Shown here: piece by piece, positions 5,121-25,025 of the stretch | How positions within the stretch are numbered: position 1 is the first letter of the stretch | How the letters are laid out: the number at the start of each line of letters is the position of its first letter | Source of the DNA: a virus | DNA length: 33,430 bases | Reading direction: 5' to 3' (one strand) | IMG/VR virus record: IMGVR_UViG_3300020154_000011 | Location: 1 to 33,430 of that record | Made by a program: the position numbers and the translations under genes | The notes under the pieces: model-generated | Seen by the model: only the letters and a program-made list of their open reading frames with translations | What the model was told of the DNA's origin: nothing | Databases searched by the model: none

Positions 5121-6131
5121 TCACGGACCCGTGCCAGGGTTGTTGCGATTCATGTAGGCCCACGCTCCGTAGGCGCCAAGATCACTGAGTGCGCCACCCC
5201 AAGCATTGGCCGCACCGATCTGGCCCGCTGCCGCTGCGTTTGCGCCGCCAACGATGTTCGCGCCGATGTTTCCACCGGTAGCCACGGCCTGATTGCCAAC
5301 CCCTGCCGCTGCGTTCTGCCCCATGCCGGCCATGCTCGTCAGGCGCTGGAAGATGTTTCCTTGCTGCGTCTGGAAGCGGTTGAACGCGTTTCCGTATTCC
5401 TGCGAGGCTGCGCCCTGGTTGTATTCCATGAGCGCTTTGAGTGCGGGGCCCGATAGAGACCCCGACCCAGCTGCAGCAGTGTTCATCACGCCCTGTGCGC
5501 CCTGCTGAAGACGCCACTGATAGCCCGGATCCATGCCAGCCTTGAACTGCTCGGGACCGAATAGCTGCGTCAGGAAGCCGGTGGGTAACCCCGTACTGCC
5601 CTCGGTTGGTAGCTCCCCCGCGCCTGTGCCTTGCGTCGCCTCACCACTGGCATTTGTGCGGGTTCCAGCCAGCTGAGCTGGCGTCGGCATCGTCCAGCCT
5701 GTGTCGTTGATGAATCGGCCGTTCGGGCCTCCCGGGCGTAACGTGCCGATACGCTGACCGCCGTGATGGACTTCGTACCAACCGTTACCGACATCGACCG
5801 TAGTTGTTCCAGGTGGCAAATAGGTGTCGCCTACCAATTGGCCGTTGTTCTCATCCCATTTCGTGCGCTCTTCTGTGCCTGGTGCATTTCCGAGCGCAGT
5901 CTGAGGAGCGATGCCCATCAAGCGGGATAGTTCGGCGTTGGCGCCATAACCACTCTGCATGAATGGCAATTGCTGAGCGCGCGAGATGTCGAACATCTCC
6001 CGGTTCACATCAGCCGCATACGCGGCCCCCTCGCGTTGCGTGCCTGCGGCATCCTTGGCCGCATCGGCTTGTATCGCTGCGGCTCCCAGACCTGCGACGG
6101 CTGCGCCGGCCGCTGCCCACCCGATCGGCAT
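5121..6131 (-). CDS. DNA transfer/ejection protein, P22 gp7-like
   Basis: I place the start at the ATG at 6131, which has GGAGGG seven bases upstream; a longer reading frame would run into the preceding gene. The 336-residue product begins MPIGWAAAGAAVAGLGAAA, an Ala/Gly-rich hydrophobic segment. A helical QADAAKDAAGTQREGAAYA region follows, which is the typical opening of podoviral gp7/gp14-like internal proteins. The C-terminus (residues ~220-325) is again Ala/Gly/Asn rich. Such proteins are packaged in the virion and ejected to form a conduit across the envelope. The gene is followed, after one base, by the second ejection-type gene. Confidence 0.72.
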   Translation of the reverse strand: MPIGWAAAGAAVAGLGAAAIQADAAKDAAGTQREGAAYAADVNREMFDISRAQQLPFMQSGYGANAELSRLMGIAPQTALGNAPGTEERTKWDENNGQLVGDTYLPPGTTTVDVGNGWYEVHHGGQRIGTLRPGGPNGRFINDTGWTMPTPAQLAGTRTNASGEATQGTGAGELPTEGSTGLPTGFLTQLFGPEQFKAGMDPGYQWRLQQGAQGVMNTAAAGSGSLSGPALKALMEYNQGAASQEYGNAFNRFQTQQGNIFQRLTSMAGMGQNAAAGVGNQAVATGGNIGANIVGGANAAAAGQIGAANAWGGALSDLGAYGAWAYMNRNNPGTGP

Positions 6132-6133
6132 CT

Positions 6134-6697
6134 CTATACCCTCCGCTCGGTAAACCGAGTCCGAATGCAGCAAATCATGGTCATGCGCGCGTGCTCGGTT
6201 GGATTCAAAACATGATGCGGTCGCGAATTGTCGAACCAGAAACAGTCGCCCGGCTTTGTTTCGAGCGACTTGTCTTCCACGTAAAAAGCCTGTCCCGGCG
6301 CTGATGCGAGCTGCACCGCGAATTTCTCATAGTGACGCGCGTGCCATCCTCGATCGATGTGCGGATAGCATGTGGCACCCGCCGGCTGTCGAGTGATCAA
6401 CACCATTCCAAGCCGCTCACCCTTTGCCGCGGCCATTACCTGCATCGCAAGGTCATAAGCCGAGGGGATTTGCTCGAGCACATCCCACCACACTGAGTCA
6501 TGCGCTTCGTTGAACGCCTGCCGGTCGCCGGTGAAGTTCTCGCGCGCGTTGTAGCGGACGATGATGTCGTCCATCTCTCGATGCGGTGACTGCGGGTGAT
6601 TAGTCCGCAGGTCGAAGTCATTCCATAGCTCTGGATGCCATGCCAGTTCAGTGACCAGCTGGGTTACATCGAACGTGTACGGCATGAGGCGTAGCAT
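6134..6697 (-). CDS. 2-oxoglutarate/Fe(II) oxygenase, aspartyl/asparaginyl hydroxylase-like
   Basis: The ATG at 6697 overlaps the TGA of the upstream sulfotransferase-like gene (ATGA), giving 187 residues. A jelly-roll core carries the expected ligands: H113-x-D115 in CYPHIDRGW, a distal histidine in SRPHHVLN (H161 or H162), and R171 in ARMTMI placed to bind 2-oxoglutarate. The order YEKFAVQL, F, then GDCFWFDNSRPHH follows the aspartyl/asparaginyl beta-hydroxylase family, which hydroxylates side chains. The substrate is unknown. Its partner gene and its place among tail genes suggest modification of a virion or host molecule. A later internal start (MPYTF, 6685) is possible but lacks the overlap. 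Confidence 0.8.
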   Translation of the reverse strand: MLRLMPYTFDVTQLVTELAWHPELWNDFDLRTNHPQSPHREMDDIIVRYNARENFTGDRQAFNEAHDSVWWDVLEQIPSAYDLAMQVMAAAKGERLGMVLITRQPAGATCYPHIDRGWHARHYEKFAVQLASAPGQAFYVEDKSLETKPGDCFWFDNSRPHHVLNPTEHARMTMICCIRTRFTERRV

Positions 6698-17911: not shown

Positions 17912-18101
17912 CTAGATGGCCACTGTGCTCAATGGCGCTGAGATCCGGGAGCGACTTGCGCAAGAGAATCTGAATGGCCGTCACCTGGGACTTGCTCAGG
18001 TCCAGCTTGCCAAGTGCATGATCCGTCAAGCGCCGCACGAGCATACTGGTCTGAATGCGCTGACGCACTTTGTCGGGGGTCCACGCCCCTCGTTGAGCCA
18101 T
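17796..18101 (-). CDS. terS: probable terminase small subunit
   Basis: The ATG at 18101 has GGAG seven bases upstream, giving 101 residues. AWTPDKVRQRIQTSMLVRRLTDHALGKLDLSKSQVTAIQILLRKSLPDL is a helical region with a helix-turn-helix-like pattern. The C-terminus is rich in Gly, Pro and Glu. Size, position and overlap with terL all fit a small terminase subunit, which binds the packaging site. The 116-bp out-of-frame overlap with terL is longer than usual. It also begins inside the HNH gene's reading frame, so this short region is read in three frames. Confidence 0.75.
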   Translation of the reverse strand: MAQRGAWTPDKVRQRIQTSMLVRRLTDHALGKLDLSKSQVTAIQILLRKSLPDLSAIEHSGHLDVRRPEELTDAELADIASGRGNGAVGPAQCPEEPGEVH

Positions 18102-18582
18102 GATCAATCTCCAATATCCAATGGGCGAATTGCTTGAGCTGGCCTGCTGTCGCATTGCTCTTCATGCGATTGGCCAGATAGCTGATCACACGGACATTGC
18201 CCTTGACGTAACCGAGTGAGCTATCGATGCGATCCACGCTTGCGCTTTGATCGCGGCCAATCTTGCCTTTGCTGGGGCGCAGTTCAAAACCAAATACGGG
18301 GCAATGCGTGGGGACTTGAATGTCCTGGGGCTCTAGGTTGAACTCAAGGCCGTTACGCTTAGCGCGAGTCCGGCATTCCAGGAATAGATACCAAGCAACA
18401 TTCTGTTTGCGCTTCGCCGATCGATATTGATTGTAGTAATCAGCCCTGGCAGCCACATGGACTTTGTTGTAGGCACGAACGCAGGATTTGCATTCAGCAG
18501 CACGTCCGCTGCTCTTAGAGCGGTTTCTGGCGAATGCCTCAATAGGCTGCTCTACTTTGCACTTCCAGCATACCTTCGTCAC
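17929..18582 (-). CDS. HNH-type endonuclease with N-terminal zinc finger
   Basis: GTG at 18582 overlaps the previous TGA (GTGA). Residues 5-34 hold a four-cysteine finger (C5-x2-C8 and C31-x2-C34). Residues ~93-143 are HNH-like: HCPVFGFEL, then SVDRIDSSLGYVKGNV and SYLANRMKSN, a block common in phage HNH nucleases. The recognisable domain ends near residue 160, exactly where the terS gene starts. The last ~57 residues are read out of frame through terS, look like random translation, and may be a read-through tail without function. HNH proteins beside terminases can help cut concatemers; it could equally be a freestanding homing nuclease. Confidence 0.75.
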   Translation of the reverse strand: MTKVCWKCKVEQPIEAFARNRSKSSGRAAECKSCVRAYNKVHVAARADYYNQYRSAKRKQNVAWYLFLECRTRAKRNGLEFNLEPQDIQVPTHCPVFGFELRPSKGKIGRDQSASVDRIDSSLGYVKGNVRVISYLANRMKSNATAGQLKQFAHWILEIDHGSTRGVDPRQSASAHSDQYARAALDGSCTWQAGPEQVPGDGHSDSLAQVAPGSQRH

Positions 18583-18791
18583 AGCGCCACCACCTCCGGC
18601 CCATACACCAGCGCCATATACCCGTGAGCCTGGAGCCGGCCATCGCTCATGGGCTCGAATCGCACAGCCTTGCAGCCGTTGTTACGCAGGACACGCTGAA
18701 TGTCAGTGCGCTCGGCTTCGGTGTCGGAGCCACGCAGGATGACGTATTCGCCGGTGCGCAGTTGGGGCGGTGGCGTGGGAAGGAGGTTCAT
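18579..18791 (-). CDS. small protein between two HNH genes, function unknown
   Basis: A 70-residue protein whose ATG (18791) overlaps the upstream TGA and whose TGA overlaps the next GTG, so it is locked into the operon at both ends. The start MNLLPTPPPQLRTGEYVILRGSD is followed by an alternating helix/strand pattern with TDIQRVLRNNGCKAVRF and LQAHGYMALVYG. The layout suggests a small alpha/beta domain. No family recognised. It is sandwiched between two endonuclease genes and may have belonged next to the GroES-like gene before the HNH gene arrived. Confidence 0.65.
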   Translation of the reverse strand: MNLLPTPPPQLRTGEYVILRGSDTEAERTDIQRVLRNNGCKAVRFEPMSDGRLQAHGYMALVYGPEVVAL

Positions 18792-19297
18792 GCGGCCTTC
18801 CATGTTTGTCCAAGAACGATGCGACTCACGGTGCCCTGTTTCACGCCGTAAGCCATCCCAATGCTCCTTTGGGTTTCACCCTTCGCATATCGTTCACGAA
18901 TTTCTGAAACGATCGCTCGGGTAAGCTTTGCAGTTGGGACCAACTCGCCAGTGCGCAAAGTCCCATGCACACGTTTGTCATTATGGTTATCTACAAGGGT
19001 AGTCCACCGGAGATTTGTGAAGTGATTGTTGAACTTTCGCCCATCGTTATGGGCCACGCACTCCATGCCTTCCGGACAATCACCGTGAAATGCGATAGCA
19101 ACAAGCCGATGCACCAAGCACGCTTTCCTTTTGCCACGCGGCCCAAGCCATACGAGCAGATAGCCTGAACTCCCAGGACGGGGCTTTATGATTTGCCCAG
19201 CACGGGTTCCATGCCCTACAGACTCAACCCTTCGGACATCACCGAATTCGGAAATCTCATAAGCTGGAAAGCCAGGACAACTACGCCACTGCATCAT
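18788..19297 (-). CDS. HNH homing endonuclease with NUMOD4 domain
   Basis: I take the ATG at 19297, giving 169 residues; an alternative ATG at 19312 adds five. Residues ~3-30 (MQWRSCPGFPAYEISEFGDVRRV) are a NUMOD4 DNA-binding module. Residues ~55-110 form an HNH_3 domain: VHRLVAIAFHG, VAHNDGRKFNN, NLRWTTLVDN, with the central H-N-N arrangement. The C-terminal ~50 residues (LTRAIVSEIRERYAKG and QRSIGMAYGVKQGTVSRIV) are a helix-turn-helix. This three-part layout is classical for freestanding homing endonucleases in phages. It overlaps the 3' end of the GroES-like gene by 17 bp, as expected for an element inserted at a gene end. Confidence 0.85.
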   Translation of the reverse strand: MMQWRSCPGFPAYEISEFGDVRRVESVGHGTRAGQIIKPRPGSSGYLLVWLGPRGKRKACLVHRLVAIAFHGDCPEGMECVAHNDGRKFNNHFTNLRWTTLVDNHNDKRVHGTLRTGELVPTAKLTRAIVSEIRERYAKGETQRSIGMAYGVKQGTVSRIVLGQTWKAA

Positions 19298-19682
19298 AGG
19301 TAAAACAAACATCCTGCTCTTGAACTATCAAAAAAGTCTCAGTCCCAATTGTCACTTGGGGAAATGAATATCCAGCCCCCTCGTACACATTGAGCCCACC
19401 CAGTTCGACGATGTCGCCCACCTTCACCTGCGTTGGGATGAAATGGCTCGTTTCGACGTAGTCGCGCTTGCCGCCTGCTTTGTTTCGATATCGGCGATAC
19501 AAGCGACCAGGCCCCACGGATACAACTTCACCGCGCAAGGGCCGGCCACTCCGAACGACTGTGAGTATTGTCGAGGGCTCCCAGTCGAGGGGGCGAAGGA
19601 GCAGGCGGTCTCGAAGCATTCGAAGCCTCGTTCCACCAGGGAGGATATCGGCAGATGCGGCAAAGCTGACTCCCGCGCTCAT
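19281..19682 (-). CDS. GroES-like co-chaperonin
   Basis: ATG at 19682 overlaps the previous TGA (TGATG); 133 residues. The core follows GroES order: RMLRDRLLLRPLDW (residues ~21-34), a mobile-loop-like STILTVVRSG, RGEVVSVGPG (50-59), VKVGDIVELGG (86-96), and a terminal TFLIVQEQDVCF. It is longer than host GroES (97 residues), with an insert at ~60-85 (YRRYRNKAGGKRDYVETSH). By analogy with T4 gp31 it may cap host GroEL to fold a phage protein, perhaps the coat, since P22-type coats depend on GroEL. The mobile loop that contacts GroEL is not conserved at the IVL level, so GroEL binding is inferred. Confidence 0.75.
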   Translation of the reverse strand: MSAGVSFAASADILPGGTRLRMLRDRLLLRPLDWEPSTILTVVRSGRPLRGEVVSVGPGRLYRRYRNKAGGKRDYVETSHFIPTQVKVGDIVELGGLNVYEGAGYSFPQVTIGTETFLIVQEQDVCFTYDAVA

Positions 19683-21376: not shown

Positions 21377-21495
21377 GACTTCCTCGCTCTGATCGACCAA
21401 CGACCCCACCGCTTTTCGATCCAACCATCGGCGCTACGCCACCACCAGTTGCATCGCCAGTCCCAGCGCCAGCGGGGTTTAGTACTCGTGCTCAT
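21373..21495 (-). CDS. tryptophan-rich 40-residue protein
   Basis: ATG at 21495 lies within the last codons of the helicase gene (17-bp overlap) and the TGA overlaps the next ATG. I read 40 residues with nine Trp (W9, 11, 13, 17, 18, 19, 25, 30, 33) and eleven Arg/Lys (KPRWRWDWRCNWWWRSADG). That makes 22 percent Trp, amphipathic and cationic. Such content resembles Trp/Arg antimicrobial or membrane-interface peptides, but the function is unknown. A longer upstream frame exists, but the internal start gives the sensible product. Confidence 0.55.
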   Translation of the reverse strand: MSTSTKPRWRWDWRCNWWWRSADGWIEKRWGRWSIRARKS

Positions 21496-22438
21496 ATGCA
21501 GCCTTCGGCAAGTACTGCGTCGGCACCTGATCGAACTGCTCCAGCTTGAACTGGCGTATCTGCCGGTTGAACCAGCCATCAATGTCGCCGTGGTAGGCCG
21601 GGCTGTAACGCTGTTTGCGAATTGCGATCTTCATCGGGGAAAGATGGCTTGCCAGCGCCCCGGCACCGCGCCGAAGGAATGCGACGTTATGGGCAAGGCG
21701 TCCATAGTCGGCACCACCGGCCACATCGTTGATGTCCGGCTCCTGCTCGACACTCACAGCCTTACGCGGGTGAGCAACGAGGTGCAGATGGATGTCCGAC
21801 TCGATCGTCACGGCGGCGACAAGATTCGCGAAGCGGCGCTGTGCCTCAAAGTCCTGACTGTTGATGTCCAGGCACATCAGCGAATCGATGAATGCCTGGG
21901 TGCATTGACCCTTTGATGCCAGGCCTTGAATCGTTCCCAGTAGCTCCTTGTGGCTTGCGATGCCCGTCACGCCCCAGATCTTCAGACGCTCGGCGTAGTA
22001 GTCGATGAACCATTGCAGCTGATGCGCCGTCGGCATCTCGCGGCCGAAGCACACACCGGCGAGCTGTACGATCACGTCGACCGGATGCTCCTCCATCGAT
22101 GCGACAAACACGTGCTCCCGCGTAAACAGCAGATGGTTGATCAGTTGTCGAAGTGCAGTTGTCTTGCCAGCGCCTGGATAGCCAGACCAGATCGTGTAGC
22201 CCTTCCGGTAGAACTTCAGTTTGTTGCCATAGGGATCGAACGGCGAAGTCGCATAGCGCTCGCGGGACTTCGTGAATATCTCCAGCAGCGATTTGGCGTC
22301 GGCCTTCGCAAGATCGAACAGCACCTGCCGCGGCTCGTGGAAATCGCCGATATCCGTGACGAGCATGGAGCCCAGCCGACGAGCTCGGGATGCGTCCAGC
22401 TTGGCGATCGATGCGTCGGTGGCGTTATGCGTTTGCAT
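21479..22438 (-). CDS. replicative helicase, T7 gp4/DnaB-like
   Basis: The ATG at 22438 overlaps the zinc-finger primase gene by 14 bp; 319 residues. It is a RecA-type ring helicase core: Walker A GYPGAGKTT (residues 86-94), SMEEHP with the catalytic glutamate (E116/E117), Walker B FIDSL (183-187), the sensor region HLVAHPRK (219-226), and DVAGGADYGRLAHNVAFLRR with its final arginine as likely finger. The order matches T7 gp4 and Twinkle-type helicases more than DnaB proper. It has no primase domain of its own; the zinc finger is encoded separately just upstream. Confidence 0.85.
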   Translation of the reverse strand: MQTHNATDASIAKLDASRARRLGSMLVTDIGDFHEPRQVLFDLAKADAKSLLEIFTKSRERYATSPFDPYGNKLKFYRKGYTIWSGYPGAGKTTALRQLINHLLFTREHVFVASMEEHPVDVIVQLAGVCFGREMPTAHQLQWFIDYYAERLKIWGVTGIASHKELLGTIQGLASKGQCTQAFIDSLMCLDINSQDFEAQRRFANLVAAVTIESDIHLHLVAHPRKAVSVEQEPDINDVAGGADYGRLAHNVAFLRRGAGALASHLSPMKIAIRKQRYSPAYHGDIDGWFNRQIRQFKLEQFDQVPTQYLPKAAYEHEY

Positions 22439-22838
22439 GGATGTACTCGCAGGCGTCGGCGATACGCTCGCTGGCCAGGAACAGGCGCTCGCGGTCGACT
22501 GGCTTACCCTCGGCGAGATCCGCGGAGCTGAGCGCACACACAGCAGCCTCGCGACGCAGAGCACGCAATGCATCGGCAGCACTGAACGGCTGACGTACTG
22601 CTGGCAAGTGATCCGCCAGCGGCTCGGGGAACAGGTCTGCCGTCTCAAGCCCGAGAGACGCCATCACGTCAGCAGCACCGCAGCCGGCGAAGCAATGGAT
22701 CAGAATCCGGCCGTCGTCGAGTCCGCGAACCGTGAGGCTCGGCGTCCGGTCCTTGTGCGCCGGGCAGCACGTGAGCCACGAATCACGCGAAGTGCGCTTG
22801 GCCTTCTCCAGACGGGCGATGAGGTCGTTCACATCCAC
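22425..22838 (-). CDS. CHC2 zinc-finger primase fragment
   Basis: A 137-residue protein with GGGGA six bases before the GTG at 22838; a GTG at 22832 overlapping the previous stop is a second option. Residues ~20-64 are a primase zinc-binding domain: C25-P-A-H28-K-D, then HCFAGCG (C49, C53). No TOPRIM or catalytic primase domain follows, and the remaining residues are helical. It may recognise primer sites for the helicase encoded next, while synthesis is done by another enzyme. It looks like the amino half of a T7 gp4-like primase-helicase split into two genes, or a reduced form. Confidence 0.75.
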   Translation of the reverse strand: MDVNDLIARLEKAKRTSRDSWLTCCPAHKDRTPSLTVRGLDDGRILIHCFAGCGAADVMASLGLETADLFPEPLADHLPAVRQPFSAADALRALRREAAVCALSSADLAEGKPVDRERLFLASERIADACEYIHANA

Positions 22839-23752
22839 TGAATTTCCCCTGCCGGCTTGGCCTTTTTACCCTTTGGCGCAAATAGGCCTTGCCATCCGGC
22901 TTGCATCGATGTCTCGATGATTTCGCGCTGTGTGTCGGTGTCGAATTTCGCGAGGAGTTTGAGCTGCGGTTTAAGCGCCCTGGGGCTCATCGGCATCCGA
23001 CGTTCTCGACGATGTGCAATCCATTCTTCCCACGCATCGCGTGGCAACGAATCGTGGAGCGTCAGCTCCTCTGGTGGTTCCTTGATGGTTCCTGACGGAT
23101 CCGTGTCCCGTTTTTGGGACTGTTTCGAGGGAAAAACGGTACTGTTAGGTGTCAAAACCGGTACTGTTTGAATGGTCCCGTTTTTGGGACGGGTACCGGT
23201 TTTGGGACTATTCATACAAAGCGGATTCTGGAGTCCTTCGTCGATCAAATGACGCTCATCAAGTTGAGCTTCTTTCCAGCTCGCATACTCACGAATGATT
23301 TCTTTCTGGAGAGTTATGCCTGAGTTGGCACACATGGTCGGCCAGCGACCGCTGCCCATGTAACTATCGTCCTTGGCCTCACCGACGAAGGTTCGAATCC
23401 CGACGTAGAACTGACCGGTCTGCTGATTGGTGAGGCGGTAGCTGTAATAGCAGGCCTTCCCATGATGAGGGTCAACAATCCCGTTTTCGGCACTGTTTAT
23501 CTGGTAAACAATAATCTGCCCGGTGGCGCCGACACGCTTTCCTGTGTCGCGAATGACACCAGCAGTCGACAGTGATTTCAGGTTAGCGATCACTGTCTTT
23601 CGATCCTGCGCTGTGTCGGCCGCCAGCGCCGCGATACTGGGATAGCAGTAGCCGCGCTCGTCGGCGTAATTGCATAGAACGACCAGCACGAACTTCTCGC
23701 TCGACTTGGCGATAGGCTGTTTCAGCGCCCATGAAATCGCCTGGATGCTCAC
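22829..23752 (-). CDS. replication initiator (lambda O-like) with in-frame GIY-YIG-like insert
   Basis: A 307-residue protein starting with GTG at 23752 (GTGA overlap). Residues ~1-85 form a winged helix-turn-helix (FVLVVLCNYADERGYCYPSI, RKTVIANLKSLSTAGVI) as in phage replisome organisers. Residues ~230-295 (LPRDAWEEWIAHRRERR, QREIIETSMQAGWQGLF) are the C-terminal helicase-loading-type domain. In between, ~98-180 resemble a GIY-YIG-type nuclease: YYSYRLTN, TGQFYVGIR, DDSYMGSG, QKEIIREYASW, ERHLIDEG. The linker 181-220 is Thr/Lys/Asn/Pro rich because its DNA consists of iteron-like repeats. As in lambda O, the gene probably contains its own replication origin. Confidence 0.78.
   Translation of the reverse strand: MSIQAISWALKQPIAKSSEKFVLVVLCNYADERGYCYPSIAALAADTAQDRKTVIANLKSLSTAGVIRDTGKRVGATGQIIVYQINSAENGIVDPHHGKACYYSYRLTNQQTGQFYVGIRTFVGEAKDDSYMGSGRWPTMCANSGITLQKEIIREYASWKEAQLDERHLIDEGLQNPLCMNSPKTGTRPKNGTIQTVPVLTPNSTVFPSKQSQKRDTDPSGTIKEPPEELTLHDSLPRDAWEEWIAHRRERRMPMSPRALKPQLKLLAKFDTDTQREIIETSMQAGWQGLFAPKGKKAKPAGEIQWM
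23105..23212. repeat. iteron-like repeats, candidate replication origin
   Basis: Five related elements lie inside the initiator gene. GTCCCGTTTTTGGGAC occurs identically at 23105-23120 and 23175-23190. AAAACGGTACTGTT (23133-23146), AAAACCGGTACTGTT (23154-23168) and GTACCGGTTTTGGGACTATT (23193-23212) share the GG-N-AC core, often followed by TGTT. The cores start at 23116, 23138, 23160, 23186 and 23204, so spacing is 22, 22, 26 and 18 bp, about two helical turns. This mirrors the iterons inside lambda O and suggests the initiator binds here. Confidence 0.6.
23207..23467 (-). mobile_element. GIY-YIG-like homing endonuclease domain inserted in initiator gene
   Basis: Approximate limits of the coding insert (residues ~96-182 of the initiator). 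The segments YYSYRLTN, TGQFYVGIR and DDSYMGSG follow the pattern seen in freestanding phage GIY-YIG-like endonucleases. It is in frame with the host gene, has no own ribosome site or start, and interrupts both the linker and the iteron row. Exact junctions cannot be placed without an uninterrupted homologue. Confidence 0.6.
23478..23498. repeat. isolated sixth iteron-like repeat
   Basis: ATCCCGTTTTCGGCACTGTTT resembles GTCCCGTTTTTGGGACTGTTT at 23105-23125 and lies on the other side of the GIY-YIG-like insert. Its core starts at 23489, 285 bp (95 codons) from the last core of the main array (23204). Removing an insert of roughly 88 codons would restore the ~22-bp phasing. At protein level it encodes NSAENGI, matching NSPKTGT at the insert's other end. 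Confidence 0.55.
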
Positions 23753-23934
23753 CGAATACCACGCTCCCTCTCCATTTCTTCGACACGTTCCGGTGTCCGC
23801 TGGGCATGCAGCCGTTTCAGCTCTTCCCAGGCTGATCGACGTTCATCGGGTGTAGCGGCGGTATGGAGTAGCAGCGCTTGATAGTCGATGCGCTGTTCGA
23901 GGTCATCAGCCATGACGTTTGATTGAGCGTTCAT
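23749..23934 (-). CDS. small acidic/helical protein upstream of initiator
   Basis: A 61-residue protein whose TGA overlaps the GTG of the initiator. The start at 23934 follows a TAA by three bases, suggesting coupling; a second Met at residue 8 (MADDLEQ) is an alternative. It is almost entirely helical and highly charged (ATPDERRSAWEELKRLHAQRTPERVEEMERERG). Small charged proteins ahead of initiators may help loading or regulate it, but no family is recognised. Confidence 0.6.
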   Translation of the reverse strand: MNAQSNVMADDLEQRIDYQALLLHTAATPDERRSAWEELKRLHAQRTPERVEEMERERGIR

Positions 23935-23937
23935 GGC

Positions 23938-24051
23938 TTAACCATCTATACCAAACGAACCAGGGCTGTCGATATCATCAAAACGCCGCCGACCGTGAGC
24001 ACCGGCGGCAGAGCCCACAGCGGGGACACTGGGGCAAGTCGGCGAAATCAC
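23938..24051 (-). CDS. possible 37-residue ORF filling the CII-initiator gap
   Basis: GTG at 24051 overlaps the TGA of the CII-like gene (GTGA) and the TAA at 23940-23938 lies three bases before the next ATG. The product starts MISPTCPSVPAVGSAAGAHG and ends in an acidic, Gly-rich tail (RRRFDDIDSPGSFGIDG). The junction geometry is that of the rest of the operon, but composition is not strongly protein-like, so this is tentative. Confidence 0.35.
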   Translation of the reverse strand: MISPTCPSVPAVGSAAGAHGRRRFDDIDSPGSFGIDG

Positions 24052-24446
24052 TTGGCGACCCTCAGCCTTGTCTGGGACCGCAGCTGCTCGGCGCGCTCCA
24101 TCCGTTTGGCGATCGACTTCAGCAGCTCGTTGTTCTCGCGCTCGATGCGCTCGAGCTCGTCCTCTGGCTCAACCCAGGTGCAGACGTAGCCGAGTTGCTG
24201 AGCTTCGTATTGAACGGTGGCGGATGAGCCGGCCTCTTGTGCCAGGCGTTTGATCTGGAGAACTTCGTCGGGACACAGCTTGTGTGGCTGGTCCGGATTA
24301 ATGGCGTTGCGGAGTTTCGCTGCGCCTGTTGACGCGTTCTCGGCAGGCCAGAGCTTGCCGGCGACGACCTTGAAACCACCAGCCGCGGCGATGTCAGCGC
24401 CGATTGCGTCGTAGATCGTGTCGTGAAAAAGAGCGTTCTGATTCAC
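24048..24446 (-). CDS. CII/CP76-like transcriptional regulator
   Basis: A 132-residue protein starting with GTG at 24446, which overlaps the stop of a small ORF (GTGA). The opening IYDAIGADIAAAGGFKVVAGKLWP, then NAINPDQPHKLCPDEVLQIKRLAQEAGS, matches the phage CP76/CII regulator family, with a helix-turn-helix near residues 24-45. The C-terminal third (EPEDELERIERENNELLKSIAKRMERAEQL) is a predicted coiled coil for oligomerisation. It likely controls the lysis-lysogeny choice and lies in the expected place between Cro and the replication genes. Confidence 0.8.
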   Translation of the reverse strand: MNQNALFHDTIYDAIGADIAAAGGFKVVAGKLWPAENASTGAAKLRNAINPDQPHKLCPDEVLQIKRLAQEAGSSATVQYEAQQLGYVCTWVEPEDELERIERENNELLKSIAKRMERAEQLRSQTRLRVAK

Positions 24447-24604
24447 GGTTGTACGTCCTTGTACGATTCAAACAGGAACATACAAACGGGATCGGGCGTA
24501 ATAGCGACATGTTTAAATCCGGCACAAACATGAACGCGTTCAGGCGCCCATTCATTTCGCGCGGCGCGAGTCAATCTCATTTGTTGCTGGCTGAGCGCTT
24601 TCAT
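24443..24604 (-). CDS. probable 53-residue protein upstream of CII-like gene
   Basis: ATG at 24604 gives 53 residues ending in TGA that overlaps the GTG of the CII-like gene. MKALSQQQMRLTRAARNEW is basic and helical, and WAPERVHVCAGFKHVAITPD plus VCMFLFESYKDVQP form a strand-rich C-terminus. No clear ribosome site precedes it. It would otherwise be an unexplained coding-looking gap. Unknown function. Confidence 0.5.
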   Translation of the reverse strand: MKALSQQQMRLTRAARNEWAPERVHVCAGFKHVAITPDPVCMFLFESYKDVQP

Positions 24605-24685
24605 GAAATGTCTGTCAGTTTCCAGAGTGCCGTGAGGGTGAACGTGCCTACGTGTCGCTTAGTACGTCTAGGAATTCAGGTCAGC

Positions 24686-24862
24686 TCAGAGCGAATTGGA
24701 TTTAACAGTCCGCTGGGAAAATTCAGGGACCGCCTCACGGATCACATTTGGTGTTGCCAAGCACCGACGGTAGTGCGACGTTGTGAACACAACGATTACT
24801 ACGGGGCTAAGAAACATGATGGGCACGAGCACGGCCGCTCTTTTGGGATCGAAGAAAGTCAT
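24686..24862 (-). CDS. possible small membrane protein after cro-like gene
   Basis: ATG at 24862, with AGG six bases upstream, opens a 58-residue frame that overlaps the end of the Cro-like gene by 56 bp in another frame. It contains one hydrophobic helix (AAVLVPIMFLSPVVIVVFTT) and a basic/polar C-terminus. The overlap is longer than normal here, so it may be chance; hydrophobicity and ribosome site are the only support. The interval 24605-24685 below it shows no gene I can support. Confidence 0.3.
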   Translation of the reverse strand: MTFFDPKRAAVLVPIMFLSPVVIVVFTTSHYRRCLATPNVIREAVPEFSQRTVKSNSL

Positions 24863-25025
24863 AAACAGCCTGAACCTTTCCGACACCAGGCTCGCCGATC
24901 TCTCGGCGGCTGAACTTGATCAGCCAGTTCCTATCGACACCGGCACCGACCGCGATCTCGCGATACTTCAATGCACTTTCATCAAGAAGCTGGTAGGTCT
25001 GATCGAGCAGATTCTGTCTGGCCAT
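24807..25025 (-). CDS. Cro-like helix-turn-helix regulator
   Basis: ATG at 25025 gives 72 residues. Residues ~20-42 (KYREIAVGAGVDRNWLIKFSR) are a helix-turn-helix, and VGKVQAVYDFLRS follows as the closing helix. It is the first leftward gene and is divergent from the repressor at 25100, the usual place of a Cro-type repressor that turns off the repressor promoter. The C-terminus is short and basic/His rich (SGRARAHHVS). A GGGGC lies just before the ATG. Confidence 0.68.
   Translation of the reverse strand: MARQNLLDQTYQLLDESALKYREIAVGAGVDRNWLIKFSRREIGEPGVGKVQAVYDFLRSQKSGRARAHHVS

Follow-up and report, generated by a model that had tools for sequence, protein, structure and literature searches.

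Can a phage replication initiator carry a nuclease within its own reading frame, and if so how did the nuclease come to be there and to what would it be directed? The question is raised by one gene in a virus record of 33,430 bases (the window, meaning the whole stretch of DNA that was analysed), for which an earlier note, made from the sequence alone, had proposed a GIY-YIG-like domain set in frame into a lambda O-like initiator. Homing nucleases and iteron-directed nucleases are already known. The open-access literature yielded no description of a nuclease that is housed within the initiator of the phage itself, located at that phage's origin, and mobile between initiators, and no GIY-YIG domain within an initiator was found there apart from the papers on Odn. 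The architecture described below is real and recurrent; its most likely explanation is a cassette of homing origin for which the initiator provides the targeting.

The fused gene and its surroundings

The fused initiator/nuclease gene, identified by Pfam and PHROG matches, lies at 22829..23752. These limits agree with those proposed previously; the strand, which had been left out, was found to be the minus strand. The reading frame starts with GTG at 23752, is unbroken and comprises 307 codons (307 amino acids). Both halves of the proposed assignment were recovered by profile searches: PHROG 678 ('replication initiation O-like') spans residues 1–299 (E = 2.4e-30), Pfam HTH_36 matches residues 17–65 (E = 7.4e-12, above the curated cut-off) and PHROG 314 ('homing endonuclease') spans residues 102–185 (E = 6.8e-7).

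The winged-helix (HTH_36) domain, presumed to bind iterons, comprises residues 1–86 (23495..23752, minus strand) and was delimited by Pfam, the PHROG initiator profiles and a domain of the AlphaFold model. The C-terminal helical domain of the O-like initiator comprises residues 232–299 (22856..23059, minus strand; PHROGs 678, 18589 and 6451), with helices at 238–285; residues 230–299 matched PHROGs 18589 and 6451 as well as the O-like profile, and the helicase-loader-type end that had been suggested was thus borne out. The two features of the lambda O-like family, an N-terminal winged helix and a C-terminal domain, are both present (PHROG 678). The linker of residues 182–222 (23087..23209, minus strand), which precedes the C-terminal domain, was predicted with low confidence (low pLDDT at 187–207) and encodes the origin iterons. 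In the full-length AlphaFold model residues 1–86, 100–180 and 238–285 were folded, with low confidence at 91–97 and 187–207. Binding of iterons and the start of replication by this protein are inferred by analogy from lambda O, which binds iterons located in its own gene (PMC7466680). The protein had no match in PADLOC as a known defence protein and none in NCBIfam.

The gene is the only one in the window with an HTH-profile match (E < 1e-3), and encodes the only initiator-type winged helix found there. It is held in a replication module. Upstream is a CII-like regulator (24048..24446, minus strand; Pfam Phage_CP76, E = 3.1e-6); on the other side are a DnaG-type zinc-ribbon primase fragment as the next gene (22425..22838, minus strand; Pfam Zn_ribbon_DnaG, E = 1.6e-7) and then a DnaB/KaiC-like helicase (21479..22648, minus strand; PHROGs 5482 and 239, primase/helicase). 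The zinc ribbon and the helicase are two overlapping ORFs (21479–22838, minus strand) between which no primase catalytic domain was matched in Pfam or PHROG; the pair is labelled here a split or reduced primase–helicase.

The terminase of the window phage is nearest to those of cyanobacterial phages (49% identity), which is too little to name a host. Near the terminase gene there is an ORF for a NUMOD4 + HNH_3 homing endonuclease with a weak sigma-70 region 4-like end (18788–19312, minus strand), a second mobile nuclease in this phage. Adjoining the terminase is a 217-residue ORF (17929–18582, minus strand) with a Cys-rich start (CWKCKVEQPIEAF...CKSC) and no confident Pfam match.

The nuclease core

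Relative to uninterrupted homologues, the initiator contains 88 additional in-frame codons, the number that had been claimed, at residues ∼94–181 (23210..23473, minus strand; alignments with L101, L107, L104, EBPR podovirus 1, Bcep176 and others). The GIY-YIG core itself was assigned to residues 102–181 (23210..23449, minus strand) from the PHROG 314 match, the invariant columns, a profile match to I-TevI and the fold, with Y105, Y116, R120, E166 and N181 at motif positions. Taken alone, the window copy scored weakly against Pfam SegE_GIY-YIG (E = 0.047 in the whole protein and 0.0042 for the segment alone), below the gathering threshold. Among 68 related domains, 65 matched SegE_GIY-YIG and 57 matched GIY-YIG in Pfam, and a profile built from these relatives matched the solved structure of I-TevI (1ln0; E = 5e-4).

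The AlphaFold model of the segment had a pLDDT of 96.4. Its best structural matches were I-TevI (Z = 8.5 over 80 residues) and PD-T4-3 (Z = 7.2), followed by a UvrC domain (Z about 5; 5.5) and Slx1 (Z = 4.4), so that the fold anticipated for the segment was the one predicted. As judged from sequence and model, residues 102–181 form a complete GIY-YIG nuclease core.

Two motif Tyr residues, a Gly, a third Tyr, a second Gly and a Glu were invariant in all 68 relatives and an Asn was present in 67 of them; the window copy retains every one of these positions (Y105, Y116, G118, Y131, G133, E166 and N181). E166, which is equivalent to I-TevI E75, occupies the invariant Glu column and N181 the Asn column. 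The first motif reads YSY rather than GIY, as in many of the relatives. In the profile alignment the helix carrying Arg27 of I-TevI stands opposite a gap, and the equivalent residue could not be assigned. The residue two past the Gly of YIG is His in 52 of the 68 relatives and Arg in 16; in the window it is R120, which is no more than a candidate for the role of R27.

No in-frame ATG, GTG or TTG was found between codons 60 and 132 of the window ORF, in keeping with the view that the insert has no start of its own. The nuclease core can therefore not be made alone and is always joined to the initiator; the mark of a free-standing gene, its own start codon and reading frame, is missing from the cassette. 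A group I intron around the nuclease was rejected for lack of any Rfam match in 22000–25000, and an intein for lack of a splicing (Hint) family among the Pfam matches.

Iterons within the gene

The earlier note had missed that the origin iterons lie in the gene and that the insert separates the first of them from the others. Repeats of the GTCCCAAAAACGGGAC type occur four times with at most three mismatches, all inside the fused gene, where chance would give 0.19 across the entire window. Repeat 1 (GTGCCGAAAACGGGAT; 23478..23493, minus strand) is iteron-like and upstream of the insert, and differs from its counterpart, the first iteron of the uninterrupted L101, by one change in 24 bases. The three others follow the core: iteron 2 (GTCCCAAAACCGGTAC; 23193..23208) abuts its last codon, and is followed by iteron 3 (GTCCCAAAAACGGGAC; 23175..23190) and the last iteron (GTCCCAAAAACGGGAC within AACAGTCCCAAAAACGGGACACGG; 23105..23120), all on the minus strand. 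The repeat search also gave a weaker, inverted iteron-like repeat with four mismatches (23149..23164, plus strand). With one repeat before the insert and three after the core, the cassette lies within the iteron array; in the other fusions described below it lies just before the array. The gene thus has the lambda O-like property of iterons within the initiator gene, and the position of the cassette at the origin iterons suggests how the nuclease could be targeted.

The last iteron is identical in the three other fusions and in several uninterrupted initiators, and its 24 bases are common, without a change, to fused and many uninterrupted phages.

Uninterrupted alleles and further fusions

Uninterrupted homologues, which the earlier note had named as the support to be looked for, proved plentiful. 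With the segment left out, the flanks of the window protein matched 126 phage records besides EBPR podovirus 1, to which the match extended over 92% (E = 4e-22). In alignments with the window protein, L101, L107 and L104 lack the segment but share the winged helix, and their iteron-coded linker occupies the matching position. The linkers closest to that of the window are those of L101 and L107 (NSTVFPS...KQSQKRDTEPSG), and L101 and L104 have a similar C-terminal domain. The closest uninterrupted relatives thus share the winged helix and the iterons of the window.

Two more fused initiators, L021 and L022, were found by a scan with the nuclease alignment, and the segment was present in only three of the 137 distinct initiators of one collection. 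A further scan, for exact copies of the 24-base last iteron and made without regard to the nuclease, yielded 71 distinct initiators with the window added. Besides the window, L021 and L022, the four fused initiators among these included one, L261, that had not been found before. In each of them the core begins ∼15 residues past the winged helix and ends at Cys-x-Asn just before the iterons, all reading frames are open and the catalytic positions are kept, although the copies are divergent. One mark of homing, the existence of uninterrupted alleles together with insertion at one site, is accordingly present.

Every fusion comes from metagenomic contigs. An assembly chimera is unlikely, as one fusion occurs in two metagenomes: L022 recurs as L229 with one difference in 5137 bases. 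A final scan with the four cores gave no further fusion. No fused copy was present among the matches listed from ∼123,000 annotated phage and plasmid records, each match being to the initiator or to the nuclease, and none was found by limited pattern scans of genomes, in which exact short patterns were used and distant copies would be missed. The nuclease alignment, used in another scan of genomes, gave no close relative, and single-sequence scans of viral and genome contigs for close relatives gave only winged-helix matches or none.

Two observations concern other parts of these loci. The initiators of L021 (2201–3613) and the uninterrupted L189 (2501–3655) end in a DnaA_N-like domain, a C-terminal partner unlike that of the window. 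In L261 the ORF upstream of the fused initiator (5911–6222, minus strand) resembles by eye the C-terminal part of DnaA.

History of the cassette

The four nuclease domains formed one clade against 77 others (support 99/89), whereas monophyly of the fused initiators was rejected (p-AU = 0.00055 with three fusions included, 1.7e-42 with all four). The alignments were short (82–89 columns) and the exact p-values should not be pressed; the scores of the flanks agree with them. The best flank match of each fusion was a different uninterrupted initiator (window with L101, 182 bits; L022 with L115, 167 bits; L021 with L196, 330 bits; L261 with L299, 218 bits). Scores between fusion and fusion reached only 72–129 bits, compared with 167–330 bits against uninterrupted initiators. 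The winged helix of L021 is 87% identical to that of L189 (group support 100/98) and both flanks of L021 match the L189 lineage, which indicates that the cassette moved there and not the winged helix.

A second mark of homing, a history unlike that of the host gene, is thus also present: since the nucleases form one clade and the initiators do not, the cassette has passed from initiator to initiator in the manner of a mobile element. On this phylogenetic evidence, at least four different phage initiators have acquired it. The idea of an insertion therefore stands, but not that of a single, one-off event, as four initiator lineages carry the cassette at one position. Identity among the four nuclease domains is just 42–49%, so the transfers are old or passed through unsampled intermediates.

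Comparison with known systems

The same core is found in free-standing SegE/F-LimXI-like GIY-YIG homing endonucleases (PHROG 314; Pfam SegE_GIY-YIG), which share with the cassette the motifs Y-x-Y, Y-[VI]-G-x-[HR] and GSG, the Glu and the C-terminal Asn. These enzymes are separate genes and the nearest of them (L027, L030 and L048) carry NUMOD3 motifs after the core, whereas the cassette has no start and no tail, stops at the core and lies inside another protein. Among named phages, one of the GIY-YIG cores that most resemble the cassette is N-terminal in a protein of 530 residues (L007, 1489–3087; L010, 1489–3084); the remainder of the protein in L007 is a 5-hmdU DNA kinase (HMUD2, E = 1.4e-157), and the L010 copy is annotated as homing endonuclease F-LimXI.

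I-TevI has the same fold, with catalysis and DNA binding in separate domains joined by a flexible linker. It is encoded in a group I intron and has its own DNA-binding domain; the window cassette has neither. Lambda O-like initiators (PHROGs 678 and 1032; the EBPR podovirus 1 gp48 region and Bcep176 gp11) have the winged helix, in-gene iterons and C-terminal domain of the window protein but lack the 88-codon segment. Type IV restriction enzymes that join a winged helix and a GIY-YIG domain in one protein, as here, read N6-methyladenine in restriction (PMC11037411); the winged helix of the window is instead a phage initiator domain.

The closest known parallel is Odn of ICP1 (Gp88) with its coliphage homologues, in which an initiator-type DNA-binding domain is joined to a GIY-YIG-superfamily nuclease of homing origin (PMC8263062, PMC10448857). 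Odn cuts at iteron origins and is sensitive to the arrangement of the iterons (PMC8263062), and chimeras of this type arose repeatedly (PMC10448857). Iterons are the target of Odn and the presumed target of the window protein. Odn is, however, a separate nuclease of RepA_N and T5orf172 domains aimed at the origin of a satellite. In Pfam the window protein has HTH_36 and a weak SegE_GIY-YIG match with no T5orf172 or RepA_N; its SegE-like core lies within a complete lambda O-like initiator, and no other initiator was found in the contig.

Proposed mechanism

The explanation favoured here, to which we would give an even chance, is that a working-type lambda O-like initiator carries in frame a bare SegE/I-TevI-like core that homes through iteron binding by the initiator. 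What the sequence shows is that the domain is present with its catalytic positions intact, that uninterrupted alleles exist, and that the cassette has one and the same position in four initiator lineages that are not sisters; the rest is inferred. The bare core would have come to lie after the winged helix and ahead of the main iteron array, where the winged helix is inferred to stand in for the NUMOD3 DNA-binding tail and to bring the nuclease to iterons that share their gene with the site of insertion. Since the DNA bound by an O-like initiator lies in the very gene that encodes it, the borrowed specificity would lead the nuclease to the homologous gene of relatives. If a co-infecting phage carries the uninterrupted allele, the nuclease may then cut that allele close by, and repair could copy the cassette, perhaps with the replication module, into the cut allele. 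By shifting an upstream cleavage site ∼264 bp from most iterons the insert might spare its own gene, which is a guess, and the initiator would keep its function with the insert in a flexible linker.

Against this, neither cleavage nor homing has been observed; no equivalent of Arg27 can be assigned, Arg120 being merely a candidate; the iterons of the host gene are intact and self-cutting must be avoided by some mechanism; and the four domains are as divergent as stated, without a fusion among the listed matches from the annotated records.

Alternative explanations

A domesticated origin-directed nuclease, which would replicate its own phage and cut the iteron origins of competing phages, plasmids or satellites that have the iterons in common with it, with no further need for homing, is unlikely but deserves to be kept in mind. 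Odn provides the precedent of a replicon-type DNA-binding domain with a GIY-YIG-superfamily nuclease that cuts iteron origins (PMC8263062, PMC10448857), the exact sharing of the last iteron with many uninterrupted phages means that targets exist, and catalytic positions are retained in all four divergent copies. Its own origin, however, has the same iterons, making self-protection harder to explain than for Odn, and the recurrence of one nuclease clade at one position is more suggestive of mobility than of four independent fusions.

A decaying remnant, an inactive leftover tolerated in the linker without present function, seems distinctly improbable. The unassignable catalytic Arg and the sub-threshold Pfam score of the window copy would fit it, but a neutral insert would be expected to break or vanish; instead, all positions invariant in the 68 relatives are kept in four copies of such low identity, with open frames, and the model has a pLDDT of 96.

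Slightly harder still to accept is one old fusion, later lost precisely by many initiator lineages, for which no transfer is required. The nuclease clade is old and the cassette has the same position in all four; the close similarity of the L021 and L189 winged helices would nevertheless demand many recent clean in-frame losses, and the AU test rejects a single clade of fused initiators.

Nicking of the phage's own origin by the nuclease, as an aid to the start of replication or a switch of mode, is possible from the place of the domain in an initiator adjoining iterons but has no evidence of its own and is the least credible, as the great majority of related initiators do without the domain, the closest of them with the same winged helix and iterons, and GIY-YIG domains are to our knowledge not known as replication nickases.

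Implications

On the boldest reading, a homing element would have shed its own DNA-binding domain and would live in an initiator, relying on the iteron-binding domain of that protein to be led to the gene it must invade; besides starting replication, the initiator would then act as a nuclease by which the origins of cassette-free relatives are converted or destroyed. As a whole we hold this with a little less assurance than an even chance. Such targeting would serve homing and equally the destruction of competing origins, and the choice between homing and exclusion of competitors remains undecided. If true, the finding would show how a selfish nuclease can gain target specificity from the protein that hosts it, and in what way the replication origin may become a point of competition between phages.
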